From a virus, in IMG/VR virus record IMGVR_UViG_3300042356_000098, positions 1 to 29,920 of that record: a DNA stretch of 29,920 nt. One strand, 5' to 3'. The position numbers and the translations under genes were made by a program. How positions within the stretch are numbered: the first letter of the stretch is position 1; each line of letters begins with the position of its first letter. Positions 2,892 through 14,126 of the stretch are shown in pieces. The notes under the pieces were generated by a model. The model worked only from the letters and a program-made list of their open reading frames with translations. It was not told the DNA's origin and searched no databases.

Positions 2892-4906
2892 AGCGTTGCA
2901 GATTCTTTAATTTTATTCATTTTGTTTTGTGATGCCGTTATTTCAGATTCAACAACAACCGCCTTAATAACTGGTTGATTTTGTAAACCATTATTTGCAG
3001 AACTTAGATTATTAGCTTGTCCATTGCCAGATGCAAACATTTGAGTTTGTGGATTCATTGATGGAATAGATGCAGGAGCAGAAGAACCACCACCACCAGA
3101 CGCACCCGCTCCACCCTCGAATGTTGTAGATGAAATCTTTTTAATGTTAATCAAACCAGCAGCAACCGCAATCGCAGCCATAACCGCACCGAGTATAGGG
3201 TTACCAGCAGATGCAAACGCAGAAGTAGCACTTTTATAAGTGTCAATTGTAGCACTTGCAATATTCGCAGCCTTTTGTACTTGAAACGCTTTCTTTTGTG
3301 ATGCCTTAGATTTTCCAGCGAATGCTTCAGCTAAATTTCCAATCGTTTGTAAACCACTTTGTACTGCTTCAATCTTTTGAGCGTTAAGTTTTGCTTCGTC
3401 TTCTTCTTCTTTCTTTCTGTACTTGTCGTTTGTTTCTGTAAGTTTGTTTTTTTCTTCTTCGTTTAAAGCTAATAACAAAGCACTATCTTCTCCAGCTATT
3501 GCACGTTTTAAAGCAAAGTCCTCACGTATCTTTTGAAGTTCAAGTTCTTGTGCAGTTTTACCAGTTTCAGCTTTTAATTTAGCTACCGATTCAAGACGTG
3601 TTTTTTCCTCTCCTTCTAATTTTATTTTTTCATCTGTCTTTGCCTTTTCTGAAAGTATTAATGCTTGCTTTAATTCCTCGTCATACTTTGCATTGATTGC
3701 TTTAGCTTCGTTAAATTCTTGTTCTTTAAGTTGAGCGTCAATTATCTTTTTTTCTTCTGATGTTAACTTTGAGTTTTTAGCATTATCTTCAATTAGTCGA
3801 TTATACTTTACGTCATTTGCTTTTAATTCTTTTGCAATACCCTCATCCATCAATGCGATGTTGGTGTCTTCTATTTGCCTTGCCGTTTCAATACGAGTTT
3901 TAGCGTATTCTTTTTGTTGCTCTTTTTTCTTATTGTTTGCTTCTTGGTTATTTTTTACGCTTTCCTCGTTTGCTTTCTTATCGTCTGCTACCGATTGAGT
4001 TTTAATCTTCTTTACATTGTATGTACTTTCGTCAATCAAAGTTTTAGTTTCTGCCAAACCATCTTTAATCTTTTGAATCTGGTCTTTGTCCAAACTATTA
4101 CTAACCGCATTGTCTTTAAGTTGTTGTTGTAATGCTTTTTGTCTTAATTGAGCCGTTTGTATAATAGCTTTTTGTTTGGCTATTTCTAATTGAGTTGTGT
4201 CCTTTCCTTCAATTTTTGCAATCTCAATCTGTCTGTCGTATGTTTTTACGATTCTGTCGCCTTTATCTTTGTAAGAATCTGCAATCTTTTTGTTTGTTTG
4301 AATAGATTTCTTTGCTTTGTCTTCCTCTGCAAAGTTTGTAAGCCCTAACCAATCCGCAAAATCTTTCAACTTTTGAATAACAAACCCTATCGCCTTACCT
4401 ATTGCATCAAATATAGGCTTAATTAAACCCAATTTATTTAAGAACAAACCAATTGCAACAACGATAGCAATAATCGCAGCGACTAATAAGAAAATTGGAT
4501 TTGCTAATAGTTGAAGTCCAAACGTAACGAATGCTTTACCTAAAGAACCAACCGTGCTAATTAACCCTTTTATTGACGCTCCAACGTCAGATGGTTTTAA
4601 ACCTGTTAAAGATTTTCCGAATACTTTTGCCTTGTCGGATGCTTCCTCAAAGTCTAAACTAAACAAAGAATCTTTTAATGAGCTGAATTGATTACCTATT
4701 GATTCAAACTTCGAACCAGTAGCAAAATTCTTAACGTTCTCATTTGCATCTTTTAACTTGTCAGATAGTTGACCAGCACGTTCAGCAAGTTGTTGCATCT
4801 GTTCTGGGTCGGTAGCATTTGCTAACTCCCCTTTAAGTTCTCTTAACTCGCTTTTAATTTGTGCTAATCCGTTTAGCTTAATTGGTATCTCAATGCTTTC
4901 TGCCAT
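2888..4906 (-). CDS. Tail tape measure protein
   Basis: 672 residues, the typical long tape measure architecture: an N-terminal coiled coil (about 5-80), a hydrophobic segment (about 130-165) with several membrane-like helices, a very long charged Lys/Glu coiled coil (about 200-520), an Ala-rich hydrophobic region (about 535-590), a Gly/Ser-rich linker and a short C-terminal end. In siphophages this protein sets tail length. At the usual rough 0.15 nm per residue it would predict a tail near 100 nm. A candidate late promoter ends 4 nt before the ATG, giving an almost leaderless transcript. Confidence 0.85.
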   Translation of the reverse strand: MAESIEIPIKLNGLAQIKSELRELKGELANATDPEQMQQLAERAGQLSDKLKDANENVKNFATGSKFESIGNQFSSLKDSLFSLDFEEASDKAKVFGKSLTGLKPSDVGASIKGLISTVGSLGKAFVTFGLQLLANPIFLLVAAIIAIVVAIGLFLNKLGLIKPIFDAIGKAIGFVIQKLKDFADWLGLTNFAEEDKAKKSIQTNKKIADSYKDKGDRIVKTYDRQIEIAKIEGKDTTQLEIAKQKAIIQTAQLRQKALQQQLKDNAVSNSLDKDQIQKIKDGLAETKTLIDESTYNVKKIKTQSVADDKKANEESVKNNQEANNKKKEQQKEYAKTRIETARQIEDTNIALMDEGIAKELKANDVKYNRLIEDNAKNSKLTSEEKKIIDAQLKEQEFNEAKAINAKYDEELKQALILSEKAKTDEKIKLEGEEKTRLESVAKLKAETGKTAQELELQKIREDFALKRAIAGEDSALLLALNEEEKNKLTETNDKYRKKEEEDEAKLNAQKIEAVQSGLQTIGNLAEAFAGKSKASQKKAFQVQKAANIASATIDTYKSATSAFASAGNPILGAVMAAIAVAAGLINIKKISSTTFEGGAGASGGGGSSAPASIPSMNPQTQMFASGNGQANNLSSANNGLQNQPVIKAVVVESEITASQNKMNKIKESATL

Positions 4907-12127: not shown

Positions 12128-12387
12128 TGTACTTTCTTTTTACGTGTTGTTTTCTTTACTGGTGCTTCAATAATTTCAGTAATTGCATCTATTACCTCTT
12201 GTGAAGTTGGTTTAAATTCTGGTTCGTGCGATTCGACCTTTTCGTCTTCAAATAAATGCGTGTAACCTAAAGCAATAAGTCTTCTTTGTTGCATTGGTTT
12301 TATAGTGTTTAAGTCTATTTTAATCATACCCAAAATTCCATCGTTAATAGTTATTACTTTGCCTTTGTATTCTTCTTTAACTTTCAT
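12124..12387 (-). CDS. 87-residue protein heading the packaging operon
   Basis: The start MKVKEEY at 12387 is preferred over one at 12420: it follows the stop of the sigma-like gene, and the candidate late promoter at 12401-12429 would place its transcript start downstream of 12401. The N-terminal part (GKVITINDGILG, then IKPMQQRRLIALGYTHLF) is a recurrent pattern in Bacteroidota phage genomes. The tail is Lys/Arg-rich (KKTTRKKK). Function unknown. Confidence 0.65.
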   Translation of the reverse strand: MKVKEEYKGKVITINDGILGMIKIDLNTIKPMQQRRLIALGYTHLFEDEKVESHEPEFKPTSQEVIDAITEIIEAPVKKTTRKKKVQ

Positions 12388-12394
12388 ATCGTTT

Positions 12395-12910
12395 TTATTT
12401 ATATTGTCCGTACTTTTCAAAATGTTTTATTGATTCCAGCATCTCGTTAATCATAAAATGTGCTGATGTGTGACTGATTCCAAAATGCTTAGCAATCGTG
12501 CGACCAGTAGAAATCTGCTTATCGTAATACGTCTCAAAGAATATCAGCTTAATTTTATCGGTTATTTGTCCTCTATAATTTTCTAATATCTCTAATCTGT
12601 CACTAAACTTAATTTCGTCTTCAAGTGAATCGTCAATTGAATCTGGTATATATTCGTTCTCAACTGAATTTATTATCTCTTTCTTTGAATCTGACTGCCA
12701 TAATAACTCACATTTGATTAAATGCAAAAACATTGCCTTTGCTTCGTGTTCTTCTTTGTACTGGTATTTAGATTCACTTGCTTTGATGTAAGCGTTGTTT
12801 ATAATCGTATCAATGTCAAGTTGTGAATTTAATCTGCTGACAAAATACCTTGTATAACGATTTATTTCATCGTAGTTTTTGGTAATATAGTTATTTAGTA
12901 ATGCTATCAT
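12395..12910 (-). CDS. ECF-type sigma-factor-like transcription regulator
   Basis: 171 residues. The N-terminal half (about 5-75) has the pattern of sigma region 2: a helix around LNNYITKNYDEINRYTRYF, then DIDTIINNAYIKASES, then AMFLHLIKCELLWQSDSKK. After an acidic linker (about 80-105), the C-terminal part (115-165) fits region 4, with a helix-turn-helix in TIAKHFGISHTSAHFMINEM. Known role of the family: redirects RNA polymerase to its own promoters. Inferred role: switch to late transcription, because five late operons share an unusual promoter-like motif. An RinA-like regulator is the alternative. One late motif lies inside the last codons of this gene. Confidence 0.6.
   Translation of the reverse strand: MIALLNNYITKNYDEINRYTRYFVSRLNSQLDIDTIINNAYIKASESKYQYKEEHEAKAMFLHLIKCELLWQSDSKKEIINSVENEYIPDSIDDSLEDEIKFSDRLEILENYRGQITDKIKLIFFETYYDKQISTGRTIAKHFGISHTSAHFMINEMLESIKHFEKYGQYK
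12401..12429 (-). promoter_or_regulatory. Candidate late promoter of the packaging operon
   Basis: TAAAAC (12429-12424), 16 nt, then ACAATAT (12407-12401) inside the 3' end of the sigma-like gene, 13 nt before the ATG at 12387. Identical spacing to the four other sites. Confidence 0.6.
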
Positions 12911-13337: not shown

Positions 13338-13362
13338 AAATATTGTATTATAGACGAAACAT

Positions 13363-13437
13363 TTTGTTAATAAGTTATACTATATAAGGTATAAAATCAA
13401 TACTTTGTTAATAAATTATATCAATTATGGTATAAAA
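13363..13437. repeat. Two tandem 41-bp-spaced repeats, each with a palindrome
   Basis: TTTGTTAATAA-rich units start at 13363 and 13404 and match at about 28 of 34 positions. Each contains a TTATA(C/T)-N8-GTATAA dyad (13375-13394 and 13416-13435). Spacing of 41 bp is close to four helical turns. They lie between the tRNA-like gene and the promoter of the sigma operon, as operators or origin iterons might. Confidence 0.55.
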
Positions 13438-13441
13438 AAGT

Positions 13442-13571
13442 AGTCAGGACAGGACTCGAACCTGTATGATATTTAGCATTTCGGAAAAATATCTATCTTC
13501 TATAAGCACCATATGTTAGATGTATCGGAGTTTAACCAATAAACGGCGTCTACCAATTCCGCCACCTGACT
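13442..13571 (-). tRNA. Atypical tRNA, Leu-like, 130 nt; anticodon not assignable
   Basis: Seen: a perfect 7-bp acceptor stem (AGTCAGG with CCTGACT), followed by A at the discriminator position, no encoded CCA, a T-arm ACAGG-TTCGAGT-CCTGT with a 5-bp stem, and a D-arm GCGGAATTGGTAGACGC that is standard for tRNA-Leu. Between D-arm and T-arm lie 80 nt instead of about 33. One possible anticodon arm is TATTGG-TTAAACT-CCGATA, which would read AAA; another fold pairs GTTTA with a TAAAT near the T-arm and implies an insertion in the anticodon loop. A 7-bp hairpin GATATTT/AAATATC lies in the extra region. A run of T follows the 3' end. Host tRNA decay, an intron, or a tRNA mimic are all possible. 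Confidence 0.6.
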
Positions 13572-13579
13572 ATTTATTT

Positions 13580-13587
13580 CAAATATA
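13580..13587 (-). promoter_or_regulatory. Host-type -7 box of the tRNA-like gene
   Basis: TATATTTG on the minus strand, 8 nt upstream of the tRNA 5' end, so the primary transcript would start almost at the mature end. It lies just after the NinG stop codon. Confidence 0.5.
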
Positions 13588-13592
13588 ATAAT

Positions 13593-14126
13593 TTAATTTA
13601 ATTCCTTACATTTTCTTTTATAATATTCTGCAAGTTCTTTTAACTCGTCTTTTGTGTACTTTCTTGTTATGTAAGCACGTTCACGTAACATAGTAAATTC
13701 ATCCGCTCCTATCTTGTTTTCTAAGTGTATTCCGTATTCAATTAGATTTCCAGATAATTGTACATTACACTTGTAGCAACTTGAATGAACGTTGTTTTCG
13801 TCAAATCTGACGTTGGTATGCGTACCAGCAGAATAGTAATGCGATGCGTGTGTTACTCCGTTTATTCTTTTTTGGCAAGATATACATACTTTTCCCTTAT
13901 CTCTTAAGTTAATATATCGGTTGAAGTGTTGTTGAGCTATCTTAAAGTAGTCTTGTAACGTCATAATACTATCTTTTAACGCTTTCTTACGCACTTTCTT
14001 TATCTTTTCAAGGTTCTTTATTGCTTGACGTGTTTTAGTGCATACGTAACACAAAGAATCTGTACTCCTATATGGTATAAAAATAGTGCTACACTCTTTG
14101 CATTTCTTTTCAAAAATATTTTTCAT
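13593..14126 (-). CDS. ninG: NinG/Rap-like recombination nuclease
   Basis: 177 residues. A zinc-binding N-terminus (KCKECSTIF, then LCYVCTK) is followed by a basic coiled helix, then an HNH-like core with CISCQK, HASHYYSAG, NVHSSCYKCN. This order of Cys and His motifs is that of lambda NinG (Rap), which cleaves recombination intermediates such as Holliday junctions. It overlaps the HNH gene as ATGA, and the operon ends here before the tRNA-like gene. Confidence 0.85.
   Translation of the reverse strand: MKNIFEKKCKECSTIFIPYRSTDSLCYVCTKTRQAIKNLEKIKKVRKKALKDSIMTLQDYFKIAQQHFNRYINLRDKGKVCISCQKRINGVTHASHYYSAGTHTNVRFDENNVHSSCYKCNVQLSGNLIEYGIHLENKIGADEFTMLRERAYITRKYTKDELKELAEYYKRKCKELN

Follow-up and report, generated by a model that had tools for sequence, protein, structure and literature searches.

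The window, by which we mean the whole stretch of 29,920 nucleotides analyzed here, contains a 130-nt tRNA-like gene in which the D- and T-arms lie 80 nt apart. Is this gene a tRNA-Leu carrying an intron in the anticodon loop, a decaying tRNA, a decoy for host defences that target tRNA, or an RNA of another kind? The first three readings had been raised in a first-pass annotation made from the letters alone, which had also proposed an anticodon AAA.

The anatomy was read directly from the sequence. On the minus strand, from 13571 to 13442, the order is AGTCAGG-TG-GCGGAATTGGTAGACGC-(80 nt)-ACAGGTTCGAGTCCTGT-CCTGACT, followed by the discriminator A at 13441 and by a T-run. CCA is not encoded. 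The perfect acceptor stem, Leu-type D-arm, T-arm and gap of 80 nt in the first-pass annotation, and also its -7 box and T-run, were all borne out. The features are as follows.

13441..13571, minus: whole element, a tRNA-Leu-like shell with an 80-nt core (sequence; Rfam tRNA; identical core in the viral contigs L239 and L240)
13565..13571, minus: acceptor stem, 5' strand AGTCAGG (7/7 pairs with 13442-13448)
13442..13448, minus: acceptor stem, 3' strand CCTGACT (sequence)
13546..13562, minus: D-arm GCGGAATTGGTAGACGC, tRNA-Leu type with A14, A15, G18 and G19 (sequence)
13449..13465, minus: T-arm ACAGGTTCGAGTCCTGT (sequence; 5/5 T-stem pairs)
13466..13545, minus: variable core of 80 nt in place of the anticodon arm and the variable arm; its last base is U48
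13487..13493, minus: core helix S2, 5' strand GATATTT (pairs over 7 bp with 13468-13474; part of the MFE fold and recovered by the 3'-anchored helix search)
13468..13474, minus: core helix S2, 3' strand AAATATC; 2 nt separate it from the T-stem, as is most usual for these elements
13536..13539, minus: possible crossing helix S1, 5' strand TTGG, pairing with CCGA at 13481-13484 (by analogy with the family)
13481..13484, minus: possible crossing helix S1, 3' strand CCGA, in the S2 loop (weak by itself)
13580..13587, minus: TATATTTG, a -7 promoter box of the Bacteroidetes type (TAnnTTTG), with 8 nt between it and base 1 of the downstream element
13434..13439, minus: T6 run, a possible terminator, 2 nt downstream of the acceptor stem
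13593..14126, minus: NinG gene (PF05766; Pfam E 4.2e-34), the upstream neighbour, outside the element
13437..13599, minus: 163-bp segment absent from L003 and L011; it includes the -7 box and the element and extends to the first bases of the T-run

ARAGORN reported neither a tRNA nor a tmRNA in the window, and Rfam, run over the whole window with its default filters, gave zero matches. On the element itself, the Rfam tRNA model scored 39.7 bits (gathering threshold 29; E 2.6e-7) and required a 61-nt insert in the anticodon loop, where GUUUA/UAAAU was taken by Infernal as the anticodon stem around the insert. The normal tRNA-Leu fold that the first-pass annotation had named as the opposite outcome was not obtained. 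An E-value scan of 13380-13630 returned tRNA and one chance match, and no known intron family. The acceptor and T-stem pairing of the element is 7/5, not the 8/4 or 9/3 of allo-tRNAs, which have a 12-bp acceptor domain. The D-arm GCGGAATTGGTAGACGC is also present in ordinary tRNA-Leu genes of Bacteroidota. The window RNA is unlikely to work as an ordinary tRNA.

Comparison with related phages gave no normal tRNA-Leu among the terminase relatives searched. The window phage terminase shows approximately 34% identity to the terminases of Flavobacterium and Parabacteroides phages, which are distant. A near relative of the window phage (L008) possesses a different shell element with a 37-nt core at another genome position (3612-3697).

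Viral contigs were scanned for the D-arm and the T-loop placed 65-95 nt apart, with the acceptor stem and the free T-stem pairs left outside the pattern. At least 120 viral stretches contained a Leu-type shell with a core of this length. Among the matches listed, the 7-bp acceptor stem was perfect in 101/120 and all three free T-stem pairs were present in 114/120. These listed matches included 80 distinct cores with at least six acceptor pairs and two free T-stem pairs; the acceptor was AGTCAGG for 40 of them and a different one for the other 40, and 79 of the 80 ended in U48. A second scan, in which the AGTCAGG acceptor and the T-arm were fixed and shorter cores were accepted, likewise gave at least 120 matches. 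Since both scans returned at least that number, such elements seem to be common among viruses, for the most part environmental viruses. Together, the matches listed amount to 274 elements, whose cores fall into 179 unrelated clusters and range from 33 to 133 nt in length; one set, with a core of 54 nt, has 13 members.

Several different cores can be present in one contig region: five in L171, four each in L115 and L175, and three each in L137, L155 and L176. The elements of L115 and L175 sit within arrays of ordinary tRNA genes. Neither a shared neighbour gene nor an accompanying gene family was found across the elements. The cores are not tandem repeats, and no common sequence motif above the level of shuffles was detected in them. 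In an Rfam scan of 15 loci, only tRNA was detected. The cores of L239 (at about 12360-12670, the third shell in a row), L100, L201 and L115 (at 9025) contain an inner hairpin resembling a T-arm, with a GGTTCGA-type loop.

A conservation profile was prepared from 136 independent AGTCAGG-type cores. The last six bases of the D-arm carry 1.4-2.6 bits, core bases 1 and 2 carry 0.45 and 0.14 bits, and the information content is at most 0.06 bits over the next 12 core bases and ahead of the last three. Traces are found at the third-last and second-last core bases (0.40 and 0.17 bits), and the last core base, position 48, reaches 1.57 bits, with T in 129/136 cores. The conservation of the D-arm stops after base 25 and is back at base 48. 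The discriminator is A in 121/136 of these elements; among the matches listed with other acceptors, U48 is present in 40/40 and A73 in 28/40. The search patterns themselves account for part of the conservation of the D-arm and T-loop, but not for that of the acceptor and base 48 (first scan) or of the discriminator, nor for the lack of core conservation. By analogy with tRNA-Leu, base 48 and A15 of the D-loop would form the A-U Levitt pair.

An anticodon arm of 5 bp with a 7-nt loop is in place in 2.9% of the 136 elements, compared with 2.1% of shuffled cores and 93% of 27 ordinary tRNA-Leu genes from the same contig set. The absence of a clear anticodon, as first described for the window, stands as a reading. 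Since there is no conserved exon anticodon arm, support for an intron is removed and decoding by these elements is implausible. The proposed anticodon AAA depends on a single possible hairpin (UAUUGG/CCGAUA with a loop of 7 nt), and the family does not share this anticodon. The proposed decoy has to be divided: one aimed at anticodon nucleases is disfavoured by the missing anticodon arm of the family, whereas a decoy for some other host protein, or an inhibitor of it, is possible.

The cores were then treated as folded RNAs. We searched for a helix with its 3' strand ending next to the T-stem and a second helix crossing it (H-type pseudoknot), and compared nearest-neighbour stacking with that of dinucleotide shuffles. 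In 97 cores, the H-type pseudoknot was enriched with a combined p of 1.5e-12. In the 136 AGTCAGG-type cores, 33% reached p<=0.05 and the combined p was 1.3e-23, the usual spacing to the T-stem being 2 nt; about two thirds of the cores have no significant H-type pseudoknot by this simple energy model. A clear pseudoknot is found in L181, where GGTTCCC/GGGAACC crosses GATGCCGG/TCGGCATC, and further clear cases are L199, L257, L270 and L344.

Covariation was analyzed by predicting the structure from one member of each multi-member cluster and reading it on the remaining members. Compensatory double changes were seen 28 times, single changes that were tolerated also 28 times, and broken changes 24 times, whereas controls with the partners slid by 1-3 bases gave 2-6 compensatory, 21-42 tolerated single and 47-74 broken changes. 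Helix S2 covaries in the two largest sets (alignments of 12 and 5 sequences). Because the cores show covarying pseudoknots, these results suggest that selection acts on the core fold and not on a pairing seed.

The window core by itself is less clear-cut. Its fold has a z-score of -1.86, the crossing helix S1 and the resulting pseudoknot are not significant against shuffles in two analyses (p 0.41 and 0.49), and a rival hairpin, TATTGG/CCGATA, competes with S1.

Based on these results, we conclude that the elements are a class of at least 100 unrelated phage RNAs, which share the outer shell of tRNA-Leu and in which the decoding part is swapped for an ever-changing RNA, in many cases a pseudoknot. 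We hold with high confidence that their anatomy is a non-decoding shell with an independently folding core.

The window core is identical at 80/80 positions in L239 and L240, viral contigs whose 150-bp flanks are dissimilar. The L240 copy has a one-base insertion in the acceptor stem, and in L239 the shared core is followed by two more shell-like sequences. Window positions 13436 and 13600 directly adjoin each other in L003 (2369/2370) and L011 (8126/8127). The same core with unrelated flanks in two contigs and the clean empty site in two relatives mark the window element as a mobile 163-bp cassette. Many further cores recur with unrelated flanks. At the same place as the window element, L002, L005, L006, L009 and L010 possess other sequence of about 200 bp, and L008 (7390-8070) possesses a gene that we read from its sequence as GIY-YIG-like; the site is a spot of frequent gene exchange in the relatives.

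The window element lies directly downstream of the NinG gene. Across 198 elements, TAnnTTTG was present within 25 nt upstream in 12%, compared with 1.3% in shuffled sequence and about 1% in neighbouring stretches. T-runs after the elements showed no family-wide enrichment. The earlier judgement that the window gene is likely transcribed stands as a reading, in which we infer transcription from the -7 box; elements without this box may be co-transcribed with the arrays in which they lie. Between the T-run and the next genes, at 13350-13440, there are two imperfect TTTGTTAATAA...GGTATAAAA units, possibly tandem promoters or operators.

In genomes of 84,980 bacterial and archaeal species (one genome each), a nearly identical pattern gave 29 matches only, many of which are fused tandem tRNA genes or N stretches. 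Most of the bacterial-genome matches were rejected as class members, being fused or truncated ordinary tRNA genes. About ten of the 29 look class-like; such elements lie beside a tail tape-measure gene in Sphingobacterium cellulitidis and near a terminase gene in Riemerella anatipestifer. The region around the S. cellulitidis element (strain R-53603; L224) resembles a prophage. The 25-mer consisting of GTCAGG and the D-arm was found in 0/395 genomes sampled from the phylum of Flagellimonas, and because of this absence the AGTCAGG shell appears virus-specific. Among cultured phages (50,697 phage records), neither a complete shell nor any of the cores tried was detected.

Two cellular arrangements were observed alongside. 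In several Bacteroidota chromosomes (L202, L204, L220, L223, L228, L229 and L230; Aquimarina, Cellulophaga, Flagellimonas, Tamlana and others), a truncated tRNA-Leu lies directly upstream of a full tRNA-Leu(CAA). The truncated gene has the acceptor 5' strand, the D-arm and the anticodon arm without a T-arm, and the arrangement is kept across genera. Two cyanobacterial chromosomes (L208 and L211; Paraprochloron and Nostoc) possess a long-core Leu-shell element with cores that are alike, possibly a separate cellular RNA.

A description of such RNAs was not found in the full-text literature, a scope that leaves aside bioRxiv preprints and most subscription papers. As a class of RNA it appears to be new, though earlier work that is unpublished or lies outside the searchable literature may exist.

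What could the class do? The acceptor stem, D-arm and T-arm of tRNA-Leu would provide a stable, processable scaffold. In place of the anticodon and variable arms there would be a core that folds by itself. Typically this would be an H-type pseudoknot, with about 2 nt between the end of its second helix and the T-stem. The transcript would be trimmed at its ends by host RNase P and RNase Z and receive CCA. An L-shaped elbow, made by A15-U48 and by G18/G19 with the T-loop, would shield the RNA. The core would bind a protein of the host, either as a decoy for it or to inhibit it, and this target would probably be a defence or toxin factor. The combined statement, a non-decoding phage RNA with a tRNA-Leu scaffold that presents a variable pseudoknot and acts as a decoy or inhibitor, is our main reading, with a probability of about 0.4.

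That the core inhibits a host factor or serves as a decoy for it is a tentative proposal. An arms race would account for the diversity of the cores, the presence of several in one phage, their exchange between unrelated phages and the absence of a partner gene. No link between the cores and any defence system was found. Since diverse cores, several to a genome and frequently exchanged, resemble counter-defence genes, and since pseudo-ToxI is a precedent, the decoy or inhibitor is favoured over the three functional alternatives below. In a wider version, slightly more tentative again, the elements would be a large viral RNA class that has not been described before, with the virus-specific tRNA-Leu shell as an exchangeable chassis for a huge repertoire of pseudoknots. 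Each pseudoknot would be directed at its own host factor, and phages would carry several together and exchange them as cassettes, an RNA counter-defence arsenal.

The alternative that survives best, though it is unlikely, is a small regulatory RNA, the core of which would base-pair with host (or phage) mRNAs while the shell only supplies stable ends. An engineered tRNA scaffold can carry an embedded RNA (PMC3753655), many cores have single-stranded linkers, and a subset of elements has its own promoter box. However, the longest match of the cores to their own contigs, by complementarity or identity, showed no excess (mean 9.9 against 10.0 for shuffled cores), and the covarying pseudoknots point to the fold rather than to a seed.

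Somewhat less likely still is a carrier that is leucylated or binds EF-Tu, with a leucine charge that matters outside decoding. The shell would keep what LeuRS needs, namely A73, A15-U48 and the elbow, and the frequencies of A73 and U48 are those given above for both acceptor types. Bacterial LeuRS is not known to depend on the anticodon, which also counts for this reading. In addition, tRNAOther of Bacillus cereus, a non-translating pseudo-tRNA, is weakly charged (PMC3399842). But the L-shape alone needs the same bases, and the diversity of the cores is left unexplained.

A decoy that is recognized by tRNA-targeting defence nucleases or toxins through the shell itself, and not through the core, we consider doubtful. 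The uniform shell and an acceptor that appears virus-specific agree with it, and Septu is reported to cleave a tRNA variable loop (PMC13096335). Covarying, conserved cores would be needless if the shell alone mattered, and no anticodon loop is presented.

A tRNA-Leu with an intron in the anticodon loop is very improbable. The insert placed by Infernal in the anticodon loop, with its GUUUA/UAAAU stem, fits this reading, but across the 136 independent elements there is no conserved anticodon stem or loop for splicing to restore, and a common intron motif is absent. No self-splicing intron is known that would fit into the shorter cores, of 33-50 nt. Separately, theta ribozymes near phage tRNAs (PMC10879173) were considered and rejected: the cores lack the common motif expected of one ribozyme class, and a search of that paper for these terms gave neither introns nor tRNA-like RNAs.

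Decay of a tRNA or chance likeness, with which the silence of ARAGORN and the acceptor insertion in L240 would agree, is the least probable reading and is refuted for the family by an 80-nt core that is identical in three contigs with different flanks, by near-invariant shells with mostly perfect acceptor pairing, and by compensatory changes in the core helices.

These elements are easily overlooked or misnamed: ARAGORN misses many such genes or assigns doubtful isotypes, and Rfam shows them only as poor tRNA matches. Unusual phage tRNA genes should not be read as codon supply, introns or pseudogenes without caution. If the counter-defence reading is true, every core could be used directly to probe for a host target yet to be discovered, in the way that anti-CRISPR proteins were. 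With a different function, the class would remain the natural equivalent of the tRNA scaffold, and viral tRNA arrays would still include non-decoding RNAs.

Compared with canonical type II tRNA-Leu, the elements have the same acceptor, D- and T-arms, A14, A15, G18-G19, U48 and discriminator A. They differ in that the anticodon arm is missing, the core is variable in sequence and length, and the AGTCAGG acceptor with the D-arm of the element does not occur in the 395 genomes sampled from the phylum. With tmRNA they share a tRNA-like end domain and pseudoknots, whereas tmRNA is a longer RNA of the Ala type, with a tag frame and no D-stem.

Among phage RNAs, ROOL and GOLLD are also structured, of unknown function and often near tRNA islands (PMC12286853), but they are large and conserved in sequence, form their own Rfam families and have no enclosing tRNA shell. 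Irregular tRNAs in allo-tRNA-like polycistrons were described from metatranscriptomes of soil (Mukai et al. 2017; review in PMC7609411). They are reported not to be charged by E. coli enzymes, and some allo-tRNAs were suggested to accompany transposons or toxin-antitoxin systems. Arrays of irregular tRNA-like sequences with extra structure are common to both; the allo-tRNA-like RNAs differ by an 8/4 or 9/3 shell, by SerRS identity elements and by anomalies elsewhere in the molecule, and they are not described as viral. B. cereus tRNAOther is likewise a tRNA-like RNA outside translation, beside a genomic island (PMC3399842), but it is a single bacterial RNA with a Trp anticodon and no variable pseudoknot core.

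A precedent for the proposed mechanism is pseudo-ToxI, a phage non-coding RNA that mimics a pseudoknot type III antitoxin (PMC3475682). It differs in being a repeat array without a tRNA shell and in matching one known antitoxin, whereas the cores have no known counterpart. Of the type III antitoxin traits, the H-type pseudoknot is seen for the family as a set but is not significant for the window core by itself; no shared adjacent ToxN-like gene, no repeat array and, in the 15 loci scanned, no Rfam antitoxin match was found. In architecture, the elements agree with the engineered tRNA scaffold (PMC3753655), in which an RNA of interest is placed in a stabilizing tRNA shell, the difference being that the scaffold is a laboratory design.
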